Program-made: the position numbers and the translations under genes
The notes under the pieces: generated by a model
What the model saw: only the letters and a program-made list of their open reading frames with translations
Told to the model about the DNA's origin: nothing
Databases searched by the model: none
In this document: positions 21,804 to 34,144 of the stretch, one piece after another
How positions within the stretch are numbered: position 1 is the first letter of the stretch
Layout: every line of letters starts with the position of its first letter
Source: Myxococcaceae bacterium
GTDB taxonomy: Bacteria > Myxococcota_A > UBA9160
Direction of reading: 5' to 3'
Length of the DNA: 39,529 nucleotides
Assembly (NCBI GenBank): GCA_905339255.1
Contig: CAJPFO010000098.1
Coordinates: forward strand, 1-39,529

Positions 21804-23467
21804 GGGCGGCGATGGAGGTTCGCGCAGCGATCGGTCTCCCCCGGTCGGCGCTCGCGCCGAAGGAGCTCGCCCTCGTCTTCGTCGCGTTCGCCGCGCTCGC
21901 GCTCGCGCTCTACTCGAGGTCTCTCGCGGGCGAGTTCCTCTCGGACGATCTCGGCTACATCGTGACGAACCCCTGGGTGCAGTCGCTCACACTCGAGAAC
22001 ACCCAGGCGATTCTCGACCCATTCGGTGCGCCGGCCGCCTACACCGCGAACTGGGCGCCGGTCCATCTTCTCGTCCACGCCCTCGAATGGAAACTCTTCG
22101 GCGCGCAGACCCTGGGCTGGCGGATCGTGAACGTCCTCGCGCACGCGCTCATCTCGACGCTGCTCGTCTCGGTCTTCCTTCGAGCGGGCGCCACCCGTGC
22201 GGCGGCGCTCCTCGCCGCGCTCGTCTTCCTGGTGCATCCGGCCAACGTCGAGGTGGTGGCCTGGATCTCTCAGCTCAAGACGATCCTCTGTCTCGGCTTC
22301 GGCCTGGGCGCCGTGCTGCTCCATCCTCGCCGGCCTGCACTCGCCGCGCTGCTCTTCGCACTCGGCATCCTCTCGAAGACGACGGCGGTCTTCGCGCTCC
22401 CGGTGGCAGTACTCCTCGCGCTGCGCCGCGAGCGCGACCCCGACACCGAGCCACGACGGATCGACTGGCTCGTCGTCTGGGGCCTCGTCTTCGCCGCGTA
22501 TGCGCTTCCCCAGCTTCTCGCCTTCGAGCGTCTCGGAGAAGCGCAGGGCGCCATCGTCCCGGCGTCGGCCGCCGATCGCTTCCGCACCATGGTCGCGATC
22601 GCCGCCCGCTACCTGGTGATGGCGGCGACGTCGTACGGCGTCGCGACTTTCCAGGAGCCTCCGGCGCCGCGCTCGTGGCTCGACCCCTGGTTCGTTGCTG
22701 GCGTCGCCGCCGGGATGCCGCTCGCCGTTCACGCGAGCCGAGCCGTCGTGACGCGTCGCGCCGAGGGCGCGTTCTGGCTCTGGGCCGCCGCCGCCTACGC
22801 GCCGGTCTCGCAGATCTTTCCCTTCCTCTACCCGATGGCCGATCGTTACCTCTACGTGGTCCTGCCGGGCCTCGCCGGGGTGGCGTGCCTCGCGGCGGCG
22901 CGGGTTCCGTCGAAAGGCGCGGTTCGCTGGGTTTCGCTCGTCGCGGGGATCGCCCTCGCCGCATTCTTCTCGGTACGGACTTTCGAGCGCTCGCTCGTGT
23001 TCCGGAGCAACCTCTCGACGCAGGTCGATTCGGCGCGCGCCTGGCCCGAGGGAATTGCCGGGAGCTTTCTCTCGGCGCGCCGCGCCGCGGCGTCGGGAGA
23101 CGTGGACGGCGTCGTCGTCCTGATCCGCCGCGCGGCCAACGCGGGCTTCGACGGCTGGTCGCAGCTCGATGGGGATCCCGGATTCGCCGGCGTGCGGAAC
23201 GATCCCCGCTTCCGCGCGCTCGTCCACGAGGTGGCTGGGCGCTGGATTGCGATCGCGCGCTCGCGCGGCGCGTCGACACGGCTCGAACTTCGCGCCCTCG
23301 CGAGGGCGCATGCCGTGCGCGGCGAGTGGCCCGAAGCCGTCGACGCGCTCGAGCGGGCGACGGCGGTGGGAGGCGTCGCGGATGCGGAGGTGGCCGCAGA
23401 GCTCGCGCGGGCACGTCGCGCGCTCGGGGACGATCCGGAAAGGAGCGAGGGTGCCGCGCCGCGCTGA
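21800..23467 (+). CDS. TMTC-like GT-C membrane glycosyltransferase homologue, copy 1
   Basis: A 555-residue integral membrane protein. TM1 (about 22-40) is followed by FLSDDLGYIVTNP with the Asp49-Asp50 pair typical of the first outer loop of GT-C enzymes. Further marks are HPANVEVVAWISQLKT after TM3-4, several more membrane helices, FPFLYPMADRYLYVVLPG, and a soluble C-terminal part (about 400-555). These match the eukaryotic TMTC O-mannosyltransferases and their bacterial relatives, which use polyprenyl-phosphate sugars; the C-terminal part is helical and could be a degenerate TPR. The ATG at 21800 overlaps the preceding stop. Donor and acceptor are unknown. It is a paralogue of the next gene, which overlaps it by 17 bases. 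Confidence 0.82.
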   Translation: MRAAMEVRAAIGLPRSALAPKELALVFVAFAALALALYSRSLAGEFLSDDLGYIVTNPWVQSLTLENTQAILDPFGAPAAYTANWAPVHLLVHALEWKLFGAQTLGWRIVNVLAHALISTLLVSVFLRAGATRAAALLAALVFLVHPANVEVVAWISQLKTILCLGFGLGAVLLHPRRPALAALLFALGILSKTTAVFALPVAVLLALRRERDPDTEPRRIDWLVVWGLVFAAYALPQLLAFERLGEAQGAIVPASAADRFRTMVAIAARYLVMAATSYGVATFQEPPAPRSWLDPWFVAGVAAGMPLAVHASRAVVTRRAEGAFWLWAAAAYAPVSQIFPFLYPMADRYLYVVLPGLAGVACLAAARVPSKGAVRWVSLVAGIALAAFFSVRTFERSLVFRSNLSTQVDSARAWPEGIAGSFLSARRAAASGDVDGVVVLIRRAANAGFDGWSQLDGDPGFAGVRNDPRFRALVHEVAGRWIAIARSRGASTRLELRALARAHAVRGEWPEAVDALERATAVGGVADAEVAAELARARRALGDDPERSEGAAPR

Positions 23468-25115
23468 TCGCGGTCGGGACGGGCGTCGCGCCGCCGTGCG
23501 CGGTTCGCAAGGGCTCCTCGAGGCCCTCGCGCTCTTCGCGGTCTATCTCGCGGCGCTCCTCGTCGTCTACGCTCCGGCGCTCCGCGGCCCGTTCTTTTCC
23601 GACGATCTCCACTACGTCGCGACCAATCCCTACGTCCACGCGCTCACGCTCGAGAACCTCCGACAGATCCTCGATCCAGCGAGCCCGGCGAGCGTCTTCG
23701 TCGTCAACTACACGCCCGTGCACCTGCTCCTCCACGCGCTCGCCTGGCGCGCCTTCGGCCCGGACGTCCTCGGCCATCATGTCCTCAATCTCGCGCTCCA
23801 TGCCGCGGGATCGGTGCTCCTCGTGGGCGTCTTCCGTGCATCGGGGATCGGGAGACTCGCTGCGCTCGCGGGAGGGACGCTCTTCGTCCTGCATCCGGCC
23901 AATGTCGAGGCGGTCGCGTGGATCTCGCAGACGAAGACGGTTTCGTGCTTCGTGCTCTCGATGGCGACACTCCTTCTCTTTCCGAAACGGCCCGGCCTCG
24001 CGACGCCCGCGTTCTTCCTCGCGCTTCTCGCGAAGCCGACGGGAGCCTTCCTGCTTCCCGTCGCGGGCATGCTCGCCTTCGTCCGGCTCTGGCGAGGCGC
24101 ACCGCCGTGGCGGCATCTCGTCTGGCTCGGTGTCTGGGTGGTGGGGTTCCTGGTCGTCTCGATCGCGCAGATCGAGGTGAACCGCCGCTCGGGCTCTCCC
24201 GACGCAGGGCTCGGCCCCGAGGGACTCGAGCGGATCCCGCTCGTGTTCGGAATCGCGCTTCGCTACCTCTGGATGTCCGCGACCTCGCTCGGGGTCTCGG
24301 CCTTCCACGAGCCGCCCAAGCACGCCTCGTTCGCGGATCCGGCCTTTCTCGCTTCGATCCCCATCCTCGCCGTGTGCGCGGTCCGCGCAGTCCGCTCGGT
24401 GATTGGCCGGCGCGAAGAGGCCGTGTACTGGGTCCTCGCCGCGTCTTCGTTCGCGCCGATCTCTCAGATCTTCCCGTTCCTCTACCCGATGGCCGATCGC
24501 TATCTCTACTTCATCCTCCCGGGTCTCATCGGCGTGGCTTTGTTCGTGCTGCGAGACGTCGAGGCGGCGCTACCCGCCGCGCTTCGCGAGCAGGCGACGC
24601 GAGCCGCCATCGCGCTCGCACTCGTTCTTTGCATCGTCTTCGCCGTGCGAGGCCACGCGCGTGCCGAGCTCTTCGGGAATCCGGCGCTCCTGCTCGTCGA
24701 TGCGGCACGCAACTACCCCGGCGGGGTTTCGGCGAACCTCCTCCGTGCGCGAGGGGCCGCGCGCGAAGGGGACGTGCGCGCGGCGATCGAGGCGCTCGAG
24801 GCCGCCCGTGCGCGCGGCTGGAACCGCTTCGAGCAACTCGAGAACGATCCGGTCTGGGATCCGATCCGATCCGATCCTCGCTTCCGGGGTCTGGTTCGGG
24901 AGATCGCGGCATGGTGGATCGAGCGTTCGGAGCAGCTCGAGAACCCGACGCAGATGGAACTCCGCGTTCGCGCGATCGCGCACCTCGCTCGCGGCGAGCG
25001 GGATCTCGCGATCGAGTCGCTCGAGGCCGCGCTCGCTCTGGGTGGGCCGATCGACGAACGGATCCGCGAAGAGCTCGCCGAACTCCGGCGCGGATCGCCT
25101 CAACCTTCTCGCTGA
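23451..25115 (+). CDS. TMTC-like GT-C membrane glycosyltransferase homologue, copy 2
   Basis: A 554-residue paralogue of the preceding gene with the same length and order. It has TM1, FFSDDLHYVATNPYVHALT (Asp51-Asp52), HPANVEAVAWISQTKT, a multi-helix core, FPFLYPMADRYLYFILPG and a soluble helical C-terminus with ENDPVWDPIRSDPRFRGLV. The last motif matches GDPGFAGVRNDPRFRALV in copy 1, so the duplication includes the C-terminal domain. The start is GTG 23451 with AAGGAG five bases upstream; the frame stays open earlier, but that part lies inside copy 1 and is not conserved. The stop lies inside the 3' end of the convergent spermidine-synthase fusion gene (16-base overlap), and no terminator is visible. 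Confidence 0.82.
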   Translation: MPRRADRGRDGRRAAVRGSQGLLEALALFAVYLAALLVVYAPALRGPFFSDDLHYVATNPYVHALTLENLRQILDPASPASVFVVNYTPVHLLLHALAWRAFGPDVLGHHVLNLALHAAGSVLLVGVFRASGIGRLAALAGGTLFVLHPANVEAVAWISQTKTVSCFVLSMATLLLFPKRPGLATPAFFLALLAKPTGAFLLPVAGMLAFVRLWRGAPPWRHLVWLGVWVVGFLVVSIAQIEVNRRSGSPDAGLGPEGLERIPLVFGIALRYLWMSATSLGVSAFHEPPKHASFADPAFLASIPILAVCAVRAVRSVIGRREEAVYWVLAASSFAPISQIFPFLYPMADRYLYFILPGLIGVALFVLRDVEAALPAALREQATRAAIALALVLCIVFAVRGHARAELFGNPALLLVDAARNYPGGVSANLLRARGAAREGDVRAAIEALEAARARGWNRFEQLENDPVWDPIRSDPRFRGLVREIAAWWIERSEQLENPTQMELRVRAIAHLARGERDLAIESLEAALALGGPIDERIREELAELRRGSPQPSR

Positions 25116-28100
25116 GCGGGGACCGCGTCCGAGCCGCGATCGGGATCGGGCCCGTCCCCGGCGAAGGGCGCGAGGCGCGCGCGGATCACTCTCGCCTCGT
25201 CCGTGAGCTCCGGAGGGAGGTCGAGCCGATCGAGGGTCTCGAGGATCAGGCGCGCACTCCCCTTGGTTCGCGTCCGCGGTGCACGCTCGATCGACGCCGC
25301 GAGCTCGGAGGCGAGGCCGAGCGCTGCACGCGAATGGCCCGCCTGCGCGGCGGCGCGGATCCGGAGGACGAGCCCGGGAACCGACCCGTCGAGCGCACTC
25401 GCGCGATCGAGGAGCGCCATCGCCTCGCGTGCATTCGCGGCGTCGCCTCGGTCGAGTCGCCACGCAGCTCGCAGGCGAAGCGCATCGGATACCGCCGGAT
25501 CACCCGCCGGGACCGCCGCGAGTCGCTCCTCGATCCTCTCGAGGTCGTCGAAGCGGCCCGCACTCTCGAGCTTCCATCCCTCGACGACTGCGGACTGCTC
25601 GCTCGAGAGCCCCGCGGCCAGCTCGAGCGCACGTTCATTTCCCTGTTCGAGGGCTCTGCGTCGGATCTGGACGAGCGCGAAGCGCGCCTCGGTCTGGTTC
25701 GGATCGAGCCGGAGCGCGTCGCTCAGGAGCGCGGCTGCGCGCTCGTCGCGCCCCGCGGCACGTTCAGCCAGCCCGAGCGCGGTCTGCCGCTCGGCGGAGT
25801 CCGGAATCGCCGCCGCGACGGCCTGTGCACGCTCGCCGAGCCCGGCGGCGAGGAGCCTGCGGACGTCGCGAAGTCGCGCTCCGGGAGGAGCTTCTCGGAC
25901 GAGGGGATCGAAGGGGCCGAGGACGCGGCTCGCCCCGGCGGCGCGAAGCGCATCGGTTCGCAGGGTGCTCGTGCTCCGTGTCTCGAAGAAGTTGTGGTCG
26001 TCGGTATTGACGAGCGCCCCCTTCGCGAACGCACGCGATCCCGGCGCATCGAGCACGCGAGCGCGAAGGACGTCGGAAGCGCCGGAGACGCCGATCTGCG
26101 CATAGGTCGCGGGGTCCTTCGCGATCGCGCGGTCGGCGGACGAGGCCAGATCGAGAGGCGCCTTCGACGCGAGGAAGAGGACGGCGTTCGCTTCGGGACG
26201 GTAGACCTCGACGAAAGGGAATACCTCGAGAAGCGTCGCGACCAGACTCCGGAGCAGGAATTCGTCGACGAAGGCGAGGCCGATCCACTGGACGAAGACC
26301 CCGTCTTCGGCCAAGCGATCCCGGGCGAGCTCGAAGAACTCCTTCGTATAGAGATGCGAGGCGCCTGCCGTCCATGGGTGCGAGGGCTGGGAGGTGATGG
26401 CGTCGAAGCGCGCGTCGGTGAGGACGAGCGAGCCCCGCGCGTCGTTCACGTGGAGTCGCACCCTCGGATCGGCGAGCGGATCGCGGCGTCTTTCTCCGGA
26501 GACGGCGCGGTTCGCGGCCACGACCTCGGGTTCGAGCTCGATCACGTCGATCTCCTCGACGCTTCGAGGAACGTCCTCGACTGCGAGGCCTCCGCCGAGG
26601 CCGACGACGACGAGCTGCTTCGCGTCGGGTCTCGCGAGCACGGGGAGCGCCGAGAGCCATCCGTTCACGGGATAGCGTCCCGCACGGTCTCCCGTCGCTC
26701 CGATCGATGCCTCCGGGAGACCGTTGGTCCGCAGATGCCAGGTGCCCGGATCGCCCGCCCGCTGCAGCAAGAGGACCGTCGCGCCGCGGCCGACGGCGAA
26801 GTAGGTGACCTCTCCCTCGGCGGGCTGCAGGTCGAACGGCGAGCTGCGGAGCAGGCGCCACGGCGTTGCGGGCGGAACGACGAGCGCGATCGCTGCGCCC
26901 ACGGCAGAAGTTGCGAGGAGCACCTTCGCCCTCGGTGCTGCGAACCACGATGCGATGCCCGCGAGCACGAGGTTCGCGAGCGCCGCCGCGAGCACCGAAC
27001 CCCGATAGCCGAGAAGCGGAACGACGAAGAAGCCCGCTCCGACGGCGCCTGCGATCGCGCCGACGGTGTTCCAAGAGTAGACGCGGGCGGTGGCCGCCGA
27101 GGCGTCGGCTGCGCTCCGAGCGAGGATCCGTACCGCGAACGGGAAGGTCGCTCCGATGCAGAGCGTCGAGGGCAAGAGGACCGATGCGGAGAGCGCCGCG
27201 TTCGCGCCGAGGCTTCCCTGCCAGCCGGCGCCGAGCGCGACGGCGAGCGCAGGCAGGGCATCGACCCCGGCGAATGCCACGAGCGAGAGCGCGGCCGTTC
27301 CGAGCTGTGCGATCGCGAAGCCGCGGGTTGCCCGCTCGCGCGTGGTGGCGAGCCGCGCTGCAATCGCACTTCCGATCGTGATGCCGACCAGGAAGCTCGC
27401 GAGCATGGTCGAGAAGGCGTAGACGCTTCCGCCGAGAACGTGCCCGAGAAGCCTCGTCCAGAGCACCTCGTAGGTGAACGAGCAGATTCCCGAGAGCAAG
27501 ATCACGGGAAGGATCCAACTGCCGGCCACCCGCCTGACCTCAGCGCTCGGAGCGGCCGCCTCGGCCACCGGCCCGGGTGGGAGGCGCGCGAGAAGCGTAG
27601 CCACCACGAAGACGAGCGCATTGATCGAGGCGCCGACGAGTACCGTCGCGTGCTGCCCGATCGCGGGCAGGAGGAAGAACGCCGCGCAGAGCGTGCCGCA
27701 GACGGCTCCTGCGGTGTTGGTGGCGTAGAGGAGTCCGATCCTCGCGCCGATCTCGCGCTCTTCGCGGACTGCGTGCCGTGCCAGCATCGGGAGCGTCGCC
27801 CCCATGAGCCCCGTCGGGACGAAGAGGATCAAGAAGCTCGAGAGCAGGTAGTAGACCGCCTGGAGGCCCCCTCCCGCTGTGGGGGGGGTGTCTGCGCCGC
27901 CGAAGAGCGCGACGTAGAGGTCGGTCGAGAGCCCGACGGCCACCGGGACGGCGAGCGCCGACGCGGCGATCCCGAGCTCGAGCAACCCGTAGGTGAGGAC
28001 GGGGCGACGGACTCGCTCGGCGAAGCGACCGGCAATCGCCGCACCGCCGGCAAGGCCGCCCATGTAGGCCGCGAGCACCGTCGCGACGGCGAGCTCCGAG

Positions 28101-28213
28101 GTCCCGAAGACGAACGCGAACTCGCGGGTCCAAACGGTCTGGTACAGGAGCGCTGCGAATCCCGAGAGCAGGAAGCACACCAGGACGAGCGTGAGGCGGA
28201 GGTCGGGTCTCAT
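25100..28213 (-). CDS. Membrane transporter-like / spermidine-synthase-fold / TPR-like fusion protein
   Basis: A 1037-residue protein in three parts. Residues 1-455 hold about 12 hydrophobic segments in two similar halves; FLLSGFAALLYQTVWTREFA resembles ILLSGICSFTYEVLWTRLLG. Residues 465-680 are a spermidine-synthase-like Rossmann fold with VVVGLGGGLAVEDV (535-548), IELEPEVV and SHPWTAGASHLYTKEFF (611-627). Residues 780-1037 are alanine-rich helical repeats, TPR-like. The catalytic aspartate motif of true aminopropyltransferases (DSSDP-like) is replaced by TSQPSHPW, so polyamine synthesis is doubtful. Such fused proteins are common but uncharacterised. The start is ATG 28211-28213 with GGAAGGA four bases upstream, overlapping the SGNH gene stop (ATGA). 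It is the last gene of a five-gene operon. Confidence 0.85.
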   Translation of the reverse strand: MRPDLRLTLVLVCFLLSGFAALLYQTVWTREFAFVFGTSELAVATVLAAYMGGLAGGAAIAGRFAERVRRPVLTYGLLELGIAASALAVPVAVGLSTDLYVALFGGADTPPTAGGGLQAVYYLLSSFLILFVPTGLMGATLPMLARHAVREEREIGARIGLLYATNTAGAVCGTLCAAFFLLPAIGQHATVLVGASINALVFVVATLLARLPPGPVAEAAAPSAEVRRVAGSWILPVILLSGICSFTYEVLWTRLLGHVLGGSVYAFSTMLASFLVGITIGSAIAARLATTRERATRGFAIAQLGTAALSLVAFAGVDALPALAVALGAGWQGSLGANAALSASVLLPSTLCIGATFPFAVRILARSAADASAATARVYSWNTVGAIAGAVGAGFFVVPLLGYRGSVLAAALANLVLAGIASWFAAPRAKVLLATSAVGAAIALVVPPATPWRLLRSSPFDLQPAEGEVTYFAVGRGATVLLLQRAGDPGTWHLRTNGLPEASIGATGDRAGRYPVNGWLSALPVLARPDAKQLVVVGLGGGLAVEDVPRSVEEIDVIELEPEVVAANRAVSGERRRDPLADPRVRLHVNDARGSLVLTDARFDAITSQPSHPWTAGASHLYTKEFFELARDRLAEDGVFVQWIGLAFVDEFLLRSLVATLLEVFPFVEVYRPEANAVLFLASKAPLDLASSADRAIAKDPATYAQIGVSGASDVLRARVLDAPGSRAFAKGALVNTDDHNFFETRSTSTLRTDALRAAGASRVLGPFDPLVREAPPGARLRDVRRLLAAGLGERAQAVAAAIPDSAERQTALGLAERAAGRDERAAALLSDALRLDPNQTEARFALVQIRRRALEQGNERALELAAGLSSEQSAVVEGWKLESAGRFDDLERIEERLAAVPAGDPAVSDALRLRAAWRLDRGDAANAREAMALLDRASALDGSVPGLVLRIRAAAQAGHSRAALGLASELAASIERAPRTRTKGSARLILETLDRLDLPPELTDEARVIRARLAPFAGDGPDPDRGSDAVPAQREG

Positions 28214-29418
28214 GGCGTCCTTCCGTCGCGAGCGGGGCGTCCGGCCGCGGCCCTTTCGACCATCGGCGCGAGTGCCTCGGCGATCAAGCGATGACCCACC
28301 GGGTTCGGATGGCACGCGTCGGGCAGTAGACCGAGGAGCTTCGGGTTCGCTGCGACCGCCTTCCCCCCGTAGCGCGCGACCACGGCCTCACGGTCGGCCT
28401 CGAAGGCCGGATCGCTCGCGATCCGCGGGATCGCGTCCTCGACGAGACGGGTCGCGTCGAGGAAGGGAGTCCCCGTTTCGTCGGCGACCCGCCGGAGCAC
28501 CTCGGCGACGGGGCCGCGCGCGCAGTTCGCGACGAGGACGATCCCGACGTTCGCGGTGCGCGCGGCAGCGACGGCCGCGCGCACGTTCGCCTCTGCCGCG
28601 GTGTAACCCGAGACGTTGCGGACATCGTCGGGAGGCTTCGCTCCACTTCGGAGCTTCGCGACCCAGGCATCGAGCGTCTCGTAGAAGCGGCTCCGGTGCA
28701 GGATCTCGAGGAGCGCTCCGACCCATCCTTCGCGCTGGACGTACGTCGCGCGATCTGCGGCTCCGGTCATTGCGCCGTCGTTCGCGATGTAGCTCCAGGT
28801 GACGACGTCCGGGGAGACCGCGAGCCCGTCACTCACGAGTGTCACCAGCCCCTGGAACGACGAATAGCCGGGGACCCCGAGATTCAGGACCTCCCAGCCG
28901 GCCTCGCGGCCACCGAGCGCCCGTTCGAGGCGCGCGGGATAGGCCTCTTCTTCCGCCACGCCCCAGCCGAAAGTCGAGGAGTCTCCGAGCGAGGCGACGC
29001 GGCGGACGCCGGCAGCGGGCCCCGATTCGAACGCCCGGGTGCGGTAGCCCTGCGGGCTGGTCCGAACCGACCAGCGCGTCCGTTCGCGCGCACTGGCCGG
29101 AGCGAAGACGTCGAGGAGCGAGACCTCGACGTCGGGGCGCAGACGATAGAAGCGATGGCGATCCCATTCGTAGAGGTCGTAGTAGCGGCCGAGAAAGCCC
29201 TCGGCCGCGAAGGCCTCGCGGTAGTCCTCTCGAGGTAGGAGCCAGCGCTCCGAGAGCCAGGCCGGGTTCGCCGTCGCCCCGCCGAGCCGCGGGCGGAGAT
29301 CGAAGACACGGCAGATGACCTCCGCCGTACCGAAGAAGAGCAAGAGCGCCAAAATGGCGAGCATCGCGTTGGCGACACCCGACTGTGTCTTTCGAGACGC
29401 CTCGATCTCGTGGCTCAC
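28210..29418 (-). CDS. Membrane-anchored SGNH/GDSL-family hydrolase
   Basis: A 402-residue protein with one N-terminal membrane helix (about 16-37) and a periplasmic SGNH domain. Block I is VASLGDSSTFGWG (Ser147 nucleophile), block II is NLGVPGYSSFQG, block III is probably SYIANDGA, and block V is DACHPNPVGH (Asp367, His370). Family members are esterases or acetyltransferases and deacetylases acting on glycans, lipids or acyl groups. In this operon a role in acylating or deacylating a surface glycan is a fair guess, not shown. The start is GTG 29416-29418, overlapping the upstream stop (GTGA); its own stop overlaps the next gene as ATGA. The frame is open further upstream only inside the STT3-like gene. 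Confidence 0.85.
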   Translation of the reverse strand: MSHEIEASRKTQSGVANAMLAILALLLFFGTAEVICRVFDLRPRLGGATANPAWLSERWLLPREDYREAFAAEGFLGRYYDLYEWDRHRFYRLRPDVEVSLLDVFAPASARERTRWSVRTSPQGYRTRAFESGPAAGVRRVASLGDSSTFGWGVAEEEAYPARLERALGGREAGWEVLNLGVPGYSSFQGLVTLVSDGLAVSPDVVTWSYIANDGAMTGAADRATYVQREGWVGALLEILHRSRFYETLDAWVAKLRSGAKPPDDVRNVSGYTAAEANVRAAVAAARTANVGIVLVANCARGPVAEVLRRVADETGTPFLDATRLVEDAIPRIASDPAFEADREAVVARYGGKAVAANPKLLGLLPDACHPNPVGHRLIAEALAPMVERAAAGRPARDGRTP

Positions 29419-31595
29419 GATGCGTCCTCGGCAACCGGGATCGTCGACCCCGAAAGTACCGCCTGCTCCGGAATCTCGACGTCGAGGATGCGGTCTCCGA
29501 CCGAGACCCGGAAGGGCCCCTCCGGCCGTGCGGGCGCCGTGGTTCGCGTGGCGTAGGGAATCCGGAGCCTCGCCATCCCGTTCGCATCCGCGACGGCCTC
29601 GGTCCTCCACGGAAAGCGGCGTCCCGCAGGAGTCGAGACGGTAACGCTCGCGCGAACCCGAGTTCCGGGCGGAGCCTTTGCCTCGAGGACGGCGCCCGGA
29701 ACGACCTCGAAGAGCTTGTAGGGAACTCCGCGCTCGCGGATCGGCCGGCCGAACTGCTCTCCGATCGGCCTTCCGCCCGCGGGTCCTTCGGTCACGAGGC
29801 GGAACCGACCGAAGGCCGGCCTTCCGGCGGCGGCGTTGCCGTCGCTCCGGTGCAGGCGATTCGTGAGCGTGGTCGGGACGCTTCCCCCGTAATCCGTCGT
29901 GACGACGTAGCGGCTCCGAAGGCGTCGCGCCTCCTCGACCGCGCGCTCTTCACTTTCGAGCGGGAAGAAAGCTCCCACGGCTGTGTAGTTCGCGGCTCCG
30001 ATGTAGGGGCCGAAGTTGTCGGCGGGGGTCGCTCGCCGCGCCGCGTAATGGAGGACGTGGCCGATCCCCGGATATGCGAGGATTCCGTACTCGGGTCTGC
30101 GGCCTGGATCGTCGAAGCCCTGCGTCTCGGGGGTGGCCTCGCGGACGAGCTCGGCGAAGCGCAGCATCGTGCCCTCGTAGCTCTCGAGCGCGCGGTCGCG
30201 CGGGGGCTCGAATCCGCCGAACGCGCGGAGGGTTTTGGCGGCTGCGCGCGCCTGAACGTCGATCACCGGTGAGAGCAGGAACATCGCGGCGATGACCGCG
30301 AGGGTTCGGGCTACCGCCGGGCGGGCGCAAACGATCCGATGCGACACGGCGCCGAGGAGCAGCGCGAAGCCCACGCTTGCTGCCGGTGCGTAGTCGTTTC
30401 CGAATCGCGCCTGCAGGAGTGCCAGGAATCCGAACGCCGCACACCACGCCGTGAGAACGAGAAGAGGCGCCCGGCGAGCCTCGGAGCGCAGCCCGAGCAC
30501 GAGCGTCCCGATCGGCACGAACGGGATGAGCGCGGCAAAGCCACCGAAGGTCGCGAGGCCGAGTGCGATCGAGAAGCCGTTCGCGAACGAAACGAGCGGA
30601 TACTGCTCGAGATTCTGGCCTTGGTACGCATCGGTCTTCGCGACGTAGTCCAGACCGAGCGAGAGCTCGGCGAGGAGCCCGCTCGAAGCGGCGAGCGCGA
30701 GAAGCAAGAATGCCGAGAGGCCCGCCGCACGAGCGGAGCGCGCGAACGCCGACCCTGCCGGCCGCGCGCGCTCCCAGGCGGCGAGGAGCGCTGCGACCAT
30801 CGCGACGATGCCGAGCAGCGCCGGATGCAGCCACGAGAGCTCGATCGCCGAGAAGGATCCGCCGACGGTCGTTTCGGAGAGTGGAAGGAAGGGCAGGACC
30901 AGCAGCGCCGAGAGCGCCGTGCTCCAGGCCTCGCCGACGAGCAGTGAGCACCGGCCCGAGAGCACGCCGGCGCCGAGCAGAGCGCCCTCGACGATCGCGA
31001 GGTAGACGAGGCTCCCCGGCCAGGTGAGGAGCATCGTGACGCGCGCCACGACCAGCCCGGCGAAGCTCTTCGCGGGCGAAGCATGGGGATCCGGGATCGT
31101 CGAGACCGCCGCGAGCGAGAGCGCGAGCAGCGTGGCGCCGAGGAGCGACTGTGCGGCGTGGTGGTCCGCATTGCCGACGTTCGAGTACAAGATGGTCGCC
31201 GGCAGCATCGCGAAGAGCAGCGCTGCTCCGACGCCGACCGCACGCGAGGCGACGAACTTTCCGGCGGCGTACACGGGAAGTACGCCGAGCGTGCCGAGGA
31301 CGACGGGCGCCCATGCGGCGACGCGCTCGAAGGTCGGCTGCGTATCTCCGAACAGGCGCGCGACGGCGCCGAGCACGAAGTCGTAGAGCGGTGGCCACGG
31401 CGCGTGGGCTCCGTCCGGGAAGTTCAGCAGTGGATCGAAGCCGAGGATCCGCGGAAAATTCTCGAACGTGAACCAGGCGCGGCGAGCGTGGTACCACGCA
31501 TCGCCGAGCGCGAAGACGACCGAGCCATCGCCCGGGAAGACCCGTTCCGCGCCCACGCTTCGCGTCGCGAAGGCGGCGAGCAGCGCCGTCGCCAC
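29415..31595 (-). CDS. STT3/AglB/PglB-like oligosaccharyltransferase homologue
   Basis: A protein of about 726 residues: a multi-helix GT-C membrane domain (to about 445) and a periplasmic C-terminal domain. STT3 features are ALGDAWYHARRA in the first outer loop (Asp32, compare DPWYH), GNADHHAAQ (about 141-149, compare archaeal ADHHVAE), TWPGSLVY, QNLEQYP (Glu330, compare the SVSE/TIxE loop), QARFGNDYAP (about 395-404) and YGILAYPGIGHVLHYAARRA followed by ADNFGPYIG. The last stretch aligns with WWDYGxxI...R..NDN, but the WWD triad is replaced by AYP, so acceptor-sequon recognition must differ or be lost. GTG 31593-31595 is the first canonical start; CTG 31629-31631, overlapping the upstream TGA, would add 12 residues ahead of TM1. 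The C-terminus ends in small beta-rich segments. Confidence 0.8.
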   Translation of the reverse strand: MATALLAAFATRSVGAERVFPGDGSVVFALGDAWYHARRAWFTFENFPRILGFDPLLNFPDGAHAPWPPLYDFVLGAVARLFGDTQPTFERVAAWAPVVLGTLGVLPVYAAGKFVASRAVGVGAALLFAMLPATILYSNVGNADHHAAQSLLGATLLALSLAAVSTIPDPHASPAKSFAGLVVARVTMLLTWPGSLVYLAIVEGALLGAGVLSGRCSLLVGEAWSTALSALLVLPFLPLSETTVGGSFSAIELSWLHPALLGIVAMVAALLAAWERARPAGSAFARSARAAGLSAFLLLALAASSGLLAELSLGLDYVAKTDAYQGQNLEQYPLVSFANGFSIALGLATFGGFAALIPFVPIGTLVLGLRSEARRAPLLVLTAWCAAFGFLALLQARFGNDYAPAASVGFALLLGAVSHRIVCARPAVARTLAVIAAMFLLSPVIDVQARAAAKTLRAFGGFEPPRDRALESYEGTMLRFAELVREATPETQGFDDPGRRPEYGILAYPGIGHVLHYAARRATPADNFGPYIGAANYTAVGAFFPLESEERAVEEARRLRSRYVVTTDYGGSVPTTLTNRLHRSDGNAAAGRPAFGRFRLVTEGPAGGRPIGEQFGRPIRERGVPYKLFEVVPGAVLEAKAPPGTRVRASVTVSTPAGRRFPWRTEAVADANGMARLRIPYATRTTAPARPEGPFRVSVGDRILDVEIPEQAVLSGSTIPVAEDAS

Positions 31596-31627
31596 GCCGG
31601 CGGCCGCCGTGCGGCGCGAGATCTCGT

Positions 31628-34099
31628 TCAGGAGGCGCTCGGTGCGGACTTCGCCGCCGTCCGCGCGGCCTCGAGCTCTCGTCTCGCCTCGGCCGCCTCG
31701 GAGAAGTTCGGGTCGAGATCGAGGGCACGCTCGAACGCGGAGGCGGCTTCCGCGTTCCGGCCGAGCGCCCGGAGTACGAGTCCGAGGTGGTGTTGGTACG
31801 CGGCTTGGACGGGCTGCCCCGACTCCTCGGCGAGCTGGATCGCGTAACGCGACTGCTGGAGCGCGGGTTCGAGGAGCCCCTTCCGGAGGTAGACGTATGC
31901 GAGGGTGTCCGCAGCGTTCGGATCGGTCGAGAGCGCGCGCTGCGCCTCCTGCGCGAGCGTGAGCGCCCGCTCCAGGTTGCTGCCTTCCTGCGCGAGGAGG
32001 TATGCGAGGTCGTTCTTTGCACCCGCGAGGTCGGGGCGTTCGGCGAGTGCTCGTTCGAGCGTATCGCGAGTCTTCGAAGTCTCTCCTCGCGAGAGATAGA
32101 TCCGGGCGAGGAGGAGCCTCGCTCCCGGCGAGAGCGCTCCCGTTCGATCGGCTTCCTCGAGGGATGCGACCGCGAGGTCGAGCTTGTCTTGCGCAGCGTA
32201 GATCTGCAGCAGGAGCTCGAGCGCGCCAGGGAGGTTCGGAGCCACCTCGAAGAGGCGATTGATGTCCTTCTCGGCTTCCTCGTACCGGCGATCGGCGGCG
32301 AGAAGCCGCGCGCGGGCTAGGAGCGCTGCGGCCGGAGGTTCTCCGCCATCGATGATCGCGTCGAGTCGCTCGCGCGCCTCTCGTGCCCGACCGTTCGACA
32401 CGTCGAGACGCGTGATCGCGGCAATCAGGCCCCCATGCCTCGGCGCGCGCGAGAGCGCGGTCTCGAGGTGCTTGCGTGCGGCGTCGGGGGATTTCGCTCC
32501 CTCGCGCGCGGCGAACTCGATCGAACCGAGAATCGGCGGCTCCGGGAGCGCGAGCGCCCCTTCGAGAACCTGCCGGGCGACGATCGGTCGACCGCCCTCG
32601 TAGAGTGCGCTTGCGAGCAGCACCAGATCGCGCGGCGGCAACTCGACCCCCGCCTGCAGGAGCTGGAACCAGGTCTGCGCGGCGAGCGTCCAGTCGCGCG
32701 AGGCGTGGTGGATCCGCGCCTTCAGCATCGCCGTCTCCGGAGCACGCCCCCCCGACAGCGCGAGGCTTCGATCCGCTGCGGCGACCGCGCTCGGAAGGTT
32801 TCCGAGCTGGAATTCGGCGAGGGCGAGCATCCGATACGCCTCGGCGCTCTCGCGCTTCTGGACGAGATCTCGAAGCAGCGGCGCTGCATCGACATAGCGG
32901 CTCTCGACGGTCGCGAGGCGTGCCCGGGCGAGCTGCGTGCTCGGATCCTTCGGGAACTCCTTCTCGAGCGCAGCGATCGTCGCGAGCGCCTCGTCCCGTT
33001 TCGCGAGCTGGAGCTGGACGCCCGCGAGGAGCTCGAGCGCTCGGGCACGCTCCTCGCCCTTCGCAGCGAGCGCCGCGAGACCCTGCTCGGCCTCTTCGCC
33101 GCGGCCGTTCTGGAAGAGCCACGCCGCGCGGCGCCAGTGCGCATCGAGGTCGCTCGGGCGCTTTCCGAGAAGATCCTTCCAGACGGTGTCGCCAGAGCCG
33201 TCTTTCTGCTCGCGCGCGGTCGCGAGATCCGCCCACGCGTCGAGATTCGAGTCATCGGCCGCAACGAGTTGTTCGAGGGCGTAGATCCCGAACTCGGAAT
33301 CCTTCGCGATGCGTGCGTAGTCGAGGCCCACGGCCGCCGCCTCGCGACGCTCCCCCGCGCTGCCCTTCTGGTTCGCGATCTCGATCGCGCTCCGGAAGGC
33401 CGCGCGTGCCTCGTCAGGATGTTCTCCCCAGAAGAGGTAGGTCCGACCGATGTTGGCTCGGACGACGTGATTGCCGCCGTAGAGCTCGTCGGACTTCCGG
33501 AAAGCGGCGAGTGCCTGCTCGAAGAGCTCGTCGGGCGGCGTCTTCTTGGCAAGACGTGCCTCGCGGATCTGTGCCTGGCGGACGATCCCGATCTGCATCG
33601 GGTAGAGCGGGTCGTTCGGGGCGAGCTCGACCGCAGTCATCGCGGCAGCCAGCGCTTCTTGGGTGTTGCCTTGATGGAGAGCCACCTCCATGCGCCGAAG
33701 GTGCGCCATCGGGTTGCCGGGCTCGCGTTCGAGCACCGCGCTCACCAGCTCGAGGGCGCGGGTGGGATCCCCGCCCATCACGAGCTTCGCTTCGTCGAGC
33801 GTCGCGTCGGTTCGCGTCGGATCGAGCCGCTGTGTCTCGCGGAGGTAGAAGATTGCGTTCGCGTAATCCTGCTGTGCGACCAGCGCATTTGCGATTGCGT
33901 AGTTCGTGTCCGCGTTTCGCGGTTCGAGCTTGAGCGCGTTGCGGAGCTCGAGGAGTGCCTCGCGCGGCCTGCCCTGTTCCTGGTAGGTCTTCGCGTTCCC
34001 GAGATGCTCGAGCATCTTCTCGTGGTCCGAGCGGCAGCCACCGAGCGAGAGGCCGAGAGCGACGATCGCCACGGCTCGACGCAACGTCGAAGGACGCAT
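31628..34099 (-). CDS. TPR-repeat lipoprotein (PrsT-like)
   Basis: An 823-residue lipoprotein. A signal peptide ends in LSLGGC (lipobox), then tetratricopeptide repeats run almost without break to the C-terminus. Clear repeats include YQEQGRPREALLELRNALKL, ALVAQQDYANAIFYL, YLSRGETSKTRDTLERAL and ALGRNAEAASAFERALDLD. Length and architecture resemble the TPR lipoprotein PrsT of PEP-CTERM/exosortase gene clusters, although such repeats are weak evidence of orthology. It probably acts as a scaffold at the outer membrane. The start is ATG 34097-34099 with GAGGAG five bases upstream; ATG 34120 is less likely because it would put 7 residues before the signal. It lies 45 bases after the first TPR lipoprotein gene and directly abuts the STT3-like gene. 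Confidence 0.88.
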   Translation of the reverse strand: MRPSTLRRAVAIVALGLSLGGCRSDHEKMLEHLGNAKTYQEQGRPREALLELRNALKLEPRNADTNYAIANALVAQQDYANAIFYLRETQRLDPTRTDATLDEAKLVMGGDPTRALELVSAVLEREPGNPMAHLRRMEVALHQGNTQEALAAAMTAVELAPNDPLYPMQIGIVRQAQIREARLAKKTPPDELFEQALAAFRKSDELYGGNHVVRANIGRTYLFWGEHPDEARAAFRSAIEIANQKGSAGERREAAAVGLDYARIAKDSEFGIYALEQLVAADDSNLDAWADLATAREQKDGSGDTVWKDLLGKRPSDLDAHWRRAAWLFQNGRGEEAEQGLAALAAKGEERARALELLAGVQLQLAKRDEALATIAALEKEFPKDPSTQLARARLATVESRYVDAAPLLRDLVQKRESAEAYRMLALAEFQLGNLPSAVAAADRSLALSGGRAPETAMLKARIHHASRDWTLAAQTWFQLLQAGVELPPRDLVLLASALYEGGRPIVARQVLEGALALPEPPILGSIEFAAREGAKSPDAARKHLETALSRAPRHGGLIAAITRLDVSNGRAREARERLDAIIDGGEPPAAALLARARLLAADRRYEEAEKDINRLFEVAPNLPGALELLLQIYAAQDKLDLAVASLEEADRTGALSPGARLLLARIYLSRGETSKTRDTLERALAERPDLAGAKNDLAYLLAQEGSNLERALTLAQEAQRALSTDPNAADTLAYVYLRKGLLEPALQQSRYAIQLAEESGQPVQAAYQHHLGLVLRALGRNAEAASAFERALDLDPNFSEAAEARRELEAARTAAKSAPSAS

Positions 34100-34144
34100 C
34101 AGGACTCCTCGCGGCGCCATCGGGAGGCCGCGTATCCGGGAAGG

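Follow-up and report, generated by a model that had tools for sequence, protein, structure and literature searches.

The 39,529-nucleotide contig CAJPFO010000098.1 of a Myxococcaceae bacterium (assembly GCA_905339255.1), referred to here as the window, contains a gene for a membrane protein that an earlier note, made from the DNA letters, had proposed to be a homologue of the oligosaccharyltransferase (OST) subunit STT3. In every domain of life, OSTs join glycans to proteins, normally at the signal Asn-X-Ser/Thr. The frame is open at the proposed position, and the protein is related to STT3 and its archaeal counterpart AglB beyond chance (Table 1). Its best family match is NCBIfam TIGR04154 (archaeo_STT3; 3.5e-80), with 270.4 bits against a curated cut-off of 450, which no Myxococcota genome searched attains. 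Pfam AglB_L1 (PF18079) matches at 3.9e-20 and 72.2 bits, above its gathering threshold of 23.6, the Pfam STT3 N-terminal family lies barely above its cut-off (1.1e-5), and the nearest PDB sequence is Archaeoglobus fulgidus AglB-L (2e-26). The start codon is uncertain. At 31631 the frame begins with CTG, which shares nucleotides with the TGA stop codon of the TPR gene upstream; the first in-frame ATG, GTG or TTG is the GTG at residue 13, and a start there would truncate the first membrane helix in the predicted structure.

Table 1. Features of the STT3-like gene and its neighbours in the window.
Feature	Position	Strand	Basis or remark
STT3/AglB-like GT-C fold membrane glycosyltransferase, 738 aa	29415..31631	minus	open frame; profile and structure matches
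D44, Asp of first external loop (AglB D47)	31500..31502	minus	33/33 in clade A
D156-H157-H158 (ADHH), second metal motif (AglB D161-H162-H163)	31158..31166	minus	alignments
E342, external loop 5-like Glu of TIXE motif, in NLEQYP (AglB E360)	30606..30608	minus	33/33 in clade A
R409, aligned with conserved Arg of AglB QxRF region	30405..30407	minus	33/33 in clade A
AYPGIG (residues 519-524) replacing SWWDYG; both Trp and Asp gone, final Gly kept	30060..30077	minus	alignments
Short loop TDYGGSVPTTLTN where AglB carries the DK-motif kinked helix	29859..29897	minus	alignment; model lacks such a helix
C-terminal AglB_L1 (P1-type) beta domain	29439..29696	minus	Pfam PF18079, 72 bits
TPR protein, lipoprotein-like, directly upstream	31628..34120	minus	sub-threshold PrsT match; stop codon overlaps first codon of transferase
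SGNH/GDSL hydrolase, directly downstream	28210..29610	minus	Lipase_GDSL_2, 9.3e-14
Fused MFS/spermidine-synthase-like protein with TPR tail	25100..28315	minus	profile matches
Two tandem membrane proteins	21911..25091 (matches 21911-23311, 23565-25091)	plus	38-41% identity to recurrent clade A neighbour

The AlphaFold2 model, based on 17 sequences, has a mean predicted local distance difference test (pLDDT) score of 89 and a predicted template modelling (pTM) score of 0.90. Its top match among solved folds is AglB (PDB 3waj), with a Z of 35.0 and a root mean square deviation of 2.8 Å over 636 residues at 24% identity, followed by yeast and human STT3 (Z up to 31.5), PglB (25.5), and DPY19 (25.3). 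ArnT is also a fold relative (Z 23). Both the GT-C membrane domain and the C-terminal globular domain of the OST fold are present in the predicted structure, which superposes on AglB along almost its whole length, so the proposed assignment withstood the comparison of folds. Residue equivalences between AglB and the window protein are those of the sequence alignment rather than of a residue-level superposition, and AglB residue numbers were counted from the pairwise alignment with A. fulgidus AglB-L.

Homologues were collected from 40 relatives (27 of them positive for the gene), a 282-genome sample of the phylum, one scan of named genomes, and 26 archaeal genomes. The sampling thus covered Myxococcota and one archaeal phylum, mostly as metagenome-assembled genomes (MAGs). 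The named-genome scan used a six-row alignment, which makes its count of named relatives a lower bound; its matches were MAGs labelled Myxococcota or 'Deltaproteobacteria', a small number labelled otherwise, and a single haloarchaeon. The tree, obtained from 108 sequences by a short search with the six motif columns excluded, places the window protein in clade A, which comprises 33 rows from uncultured Myxococcota and has a Shimodaira-Hasegawa-like approximate likelihood ratio test (SH-aLRT) support of 100. Clade B (27 rows) is adjacent.

The landmarks that had been read from the sequence, namely the first-loop Asp, ADHH, the Glu in NLEQYP, and the Arg region, were each located in the window protein. 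The metal-binding Asp and Glu positions are invariant across clade A. Aside from the residues counted in Table 1, R24 and H158 are conserved in 33/33 and H157 in 32/33 clade A sequences, and D156 is invariant in alignments A1-A3. In AglB and PglB, the equivalent Asp and Glu touch the acceptor amide and bind the metal (PMC7226087, PMC8342417).

The acceptor-reading side is different. In AglB and STT3, WWDYG forms the pocket for the +2 Ser/Thr together with a kinked helix that carries the DK (or MI) motif (PMC3703281, PMC8342417), and the literature regards this pocket as a feature shared by all OST enzymes (PMC3703281). The pairwise alignment unambiguously places YGILAYPGIGHVLHY of the window protein beneath YGVISWWDYGHWIEA of A. 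fulgidus AglB, which bears out the reported replacement of WWDYG by AYPGIG. Specifically, W550, W551, D552, and Y553 of AglB correspond to Y520, P521, G522, and I523, and G554 is retained as G524. Alignment error or chance can be ruled out as the pairwise and multiple alignments agree and the flanking Y515 and G524-H525 are conserved. The second part of the pocket has gone as well. From the RYVV(T) beta strand to RLHxxDG there are 11-15 residues in clade A (median 12) and 11-19 in clade B, compared with 46-73 in archaeal AglBs (55 is the value quoted against the clade A median). The signature [GNDA]K[FYW] occurs in this linker in 20/20 archaeal AglBs and in no member of clades A or B; the DK Lys column is absent from 33/33 and 27/27 sequences, respectively, the MI residues having had no separate search. 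A third element, the TIXE strand, pairs with the sequon (PMC8342417). Its Thr is missing from the window protein and is kept in only 5/33 sequences of clade A and 0/27 of clade B. Judged from these alignments, the chemical half of the enzyme is kept in clade A and its peptide-reading half is remodelled. The earlier note had suggested from the motif that +2 sequon selection may be lost; this suggestion gains weight from the absence of the DK-motif segment and from the fact that both losses extend through the whole clade.

The disappearance of the acceptor-reading parts would fit a pseudoenzyme, a scaffold, or an enzyme limited to hydrolysis of lipid-linked glycan, and known OSTs also free glycan from lipid (PMC8342417). 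The catalytic residues, however, are invariant at 38% mean identity, which fits selection on the chemistry and argues against a pseudoenzyme, while speaking less to hydrolysis only. We regard this as the least probable of the explanations weighed here. A pseudogene was rejected, as 0 of the listed relatives have an internal stop codon.

The motif was compared across the tree. In clade A, the first Trp (W550) and the second Trp (W551) are each found in 2/33 sequences, the Asp (D552) and the Tyr (Y553) in 0/33, and the last Gly in 33/33. Clade B has the second Trp in 25/27 and the Asp in 3/27; WWDYG is present in 20/20 archaeal AglBs of the sequence set. The possibility raised before, that a clade shares AYPGIG, was not borne out: the string itself is common only to the window genome and a sister genome (60% identity) and is ruled out as a conserved clade motif, and what the 33-sequence clade shares is the loss of Trp, Trp, and Asp. 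Other relatives carry AHANLG, VPPSLG, and CPPNVG, among others, at this site. Early-branching members of clade A (L108, AWWAIG; L006, AWSGIG), together with L102 (SDWGLG), still have one Trp or both, which gives the impression of a stepwise erosion of the pocket. One subclade has the pattern H-[AP]-N-[LI]-G-H; since 15/16 members, at 44% mean identity, have an Asn conserved anew where the Asp used to be, its site looks remodelled rather than freely decaying. No report of OSTs lacking WWD or of Myxococcota OSTs was found among the titles listed in the literature searches, subscription journals being outside their coverage. Further variants of the motif were seen. L069 and L070 (G032:C59, G271:C12), AglB-like sequences from the same order that branch separately, have SAWEFG and AAWDRA at the motif, another state of the pocket, and L069 has a longer C-terminal linker. 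L138 (G289:C24) is a haloarchaeal STT3-like paralogue with SRWGTN, in a genome that also holds a canonical AglB.

That subclades conserve site residues of their own, as in H-[AP]-N-[LI]-G-H, could be taken to mean that the +2 pocket is built from other residues and that the protein is an ordinary N-X-S/T OST with an unchanged sequon, as its unchanged fold and catalytic residues would allow. Against this stand the loss of both Trp, of the Asp, and of the DK Lys and the deletion of the Lys-bearing segment; in known enzymes, a mutation of the Lys/Ile residue by itself reduces activity or proves lethal (PMC3703281). An ordinary OST is improbable, if not quite as improbable as a pseudoenzyme. As the target-reading pocket appears dismantled across the whole lineage with the chemical engine intact, the window enzyme probably has a different acceptor.

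Gene neighbourhoods were compared at about 50 loci. In 10 clade A genomes, GT2 and Gfo/Idh genes lie directly upstream of the STT3-like gene on the same strand; 9 of these 10 also have a DegT aminotransferase and several a hexapeptide acyltransferase. The best NCBIfam matches, all below cut-off, are AglJ for the GT2 and UDP-GlcNAc 3-dehydrogenase for the Gfo/Idh protein. Such a gene set is the one expected where a polyprenyl carrier is loaded with a 2,3-diacetamido sugar. In the window genome, related Gfo/Idh (40% identity), DegT (47%), and hexapeptide (39%) proteins are encoded on another contig, C200. The Gfo/Idh family was discarded as a marker because its presence in 38/40 genomes does not discriminate. 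A second, canonical STT3 was also discarded, as the genome (~90% complete) has a single Pfam STT3 match.

These sugar genes bear on the main rival explanation, in which an active transferase would pass a lipid-linked sugar to a non-protein acceptor, a glycolipid or surface polysaccharide, in an ArnT-like manner, and would have lost its peptide-reading parts for that reason. In the relatives, the neighbouring genes are similar to those of the Wbp route to UDP-GlcNAc(3NAc)A, which in Porphyromonas supplies a surface glycolipid with its linking sugar (PMC7468200). Joint erosion of the three peptide-reading elements, the exosortases of the window genome, and the fold relationship to ArnT also agree with it. 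However, the Glu and the first-loop Asp, which contact the amide in OSTs, are invariant, and we consider a non-protein acceptor unlikely, though less so than either alternative above.

The protein was also compared with known systems. With AglB-Long of A. fulgidus (PDB 3waj, 7e9s, 5gmy; GT66) it has in common the full-length fold, the metal and catalytic residues, and the C-terminal AglB_L1 domain; it differs in being bacterial, at ~24% identity, and in lacking Trp-Trp-Asp-Tyr, the DK-motif segment, and the TIXE Thr. PglB of Campylobacter (PDB 3rce, 5ogl, 6gxc) has the same GT-C fold and Asp/Glu catalytic layout but keeps WWD and the MI motif, with 14% identity in the structural alignment. The C-mannosyltransferase DPY19 (PDB 7zlg-7zli) is alike in overall fold alone, at 10% identity, and sets a precedent, its STT3-like fold acting on a target other than Asn-X-Ser/Thr. 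With the archaeal agl and bacterial Wbp pathways, the relatives share AglJ-like GT2, UDP-GlcNAc-3-dehydrogenase-like, DegT, and hexapeptide acyltransferase genes adjoining the transferase gene, albeit with every family match below its curated cut-off and with these genes not adjacent in the window genome. Among the features of the OST class, the fold, metal motifs, Glu, and Arg are present, and WWDYG and the DK segment are absent. Because the last two are defining features, we do not file the protein as an OST but as an STT3-fold relative whose mode of action is probably that of an OST. TIGR04154 describes the archaeosortase-associated OST, and the window genome likewise has exosortases, with the score to that family below cut-off as given above. 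Two exosortases were found (L161, G000:C61; L162, G000:C209), and one of the loci looks exopolysaccharide/XrtA-type. An association between exosortases and the STT3-like gene (27/27 gene-positive versus 8/13 gene-negative relatives; Fisher p = 0.002, uncorrected for kinship) is absent outside the order and was not used.

The explanation we prefer, at a probability of roughly 0.5, is an active lipid-linked-glycan transferase of AglB-type ancestry that acts on an amide (Asn) acceptor without reading a +2 Ser/Thr. The protein would be a GT-C glycosyltransferase of the inner membrane with an AglB-type OST as its ancestor, and would take its glycan in the periplasm, most likely from a polyprenyl-phosphate carrier, and join it to the Asn amide of an acceptor protein by the usual metal/Asp/Glu chemistry. 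With the pocket of WWDYG and DK missing and the TIXE Thr eroded, Ser/Thr at +2 would go unread, and acceptors would be selected through another local motif or delivered by a partner. Activity, a lipid-linked diacetamido-type donor, the amide linkage, and alternative acceptor selection are what we infer. The wider proposal, that in this bacterial lineage an AglB-type OST has become a glycosyltransferase that is independent of the sequon or uses a new one, and that an adjoining diacetamido-sugar pathway supplies it in many members, is held a shade more tentatively. Several points weigh against the preferred explanation: the Asp/Glu pair could act on a different nucleophile, the pocket may be rebuilt from residues outside the aligned columns, the match to Pfam PF22627 (AglB_core-like) is below its gathering threshold (17.1 versus 27 bits), the neighbourhood in the window has no sugar genes, and Gfo/Idh and DegT are common families.

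A clade in which the chemistry persists without the pocket allows one to ask, on natural material, whether amide glycosylation can be separated from the reading of a sequon. If the wider proposal is true, this would be a natural OST with catalysis uncoupled from N-X-S/T recognition; an enzyme of this kind, if active, could be the point of departure for engineering glycoproteins without a sequon or with other targets. The findings also suggest that uncultured Myxococcota have a surface glycosylation pathway not yet described.

The gene lies between a TPR lipoprotein-like protein and an SGNH hydrolase, both found where they had been described. A member of the same TPR cluster adjoins the STT3-like gene in L033, L034, and L024. 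The frame of the SGNH hydrolase overlaps the end of the transferase gene, and its true start is probably further in. ARAGORN called a tRNA-Arg(CCT) at 33837-33923 on the plus strand, antisense within the TPR gene; Rfam found nothing there at its threshold, and the call is probably false. The two tandem membrane proteins on the plus strand, which have no Pfam match, resemble an unnamed membrane protein that recurs beside STT3-like genes in clade A; by eye only, they look GT-C/TMTC-like with a TPR-like tail. The MFS/spermidine-synthase-like family is also found near STT3-like genes of both clades (L034, L035, L038, L042, L020, L025, and L030).

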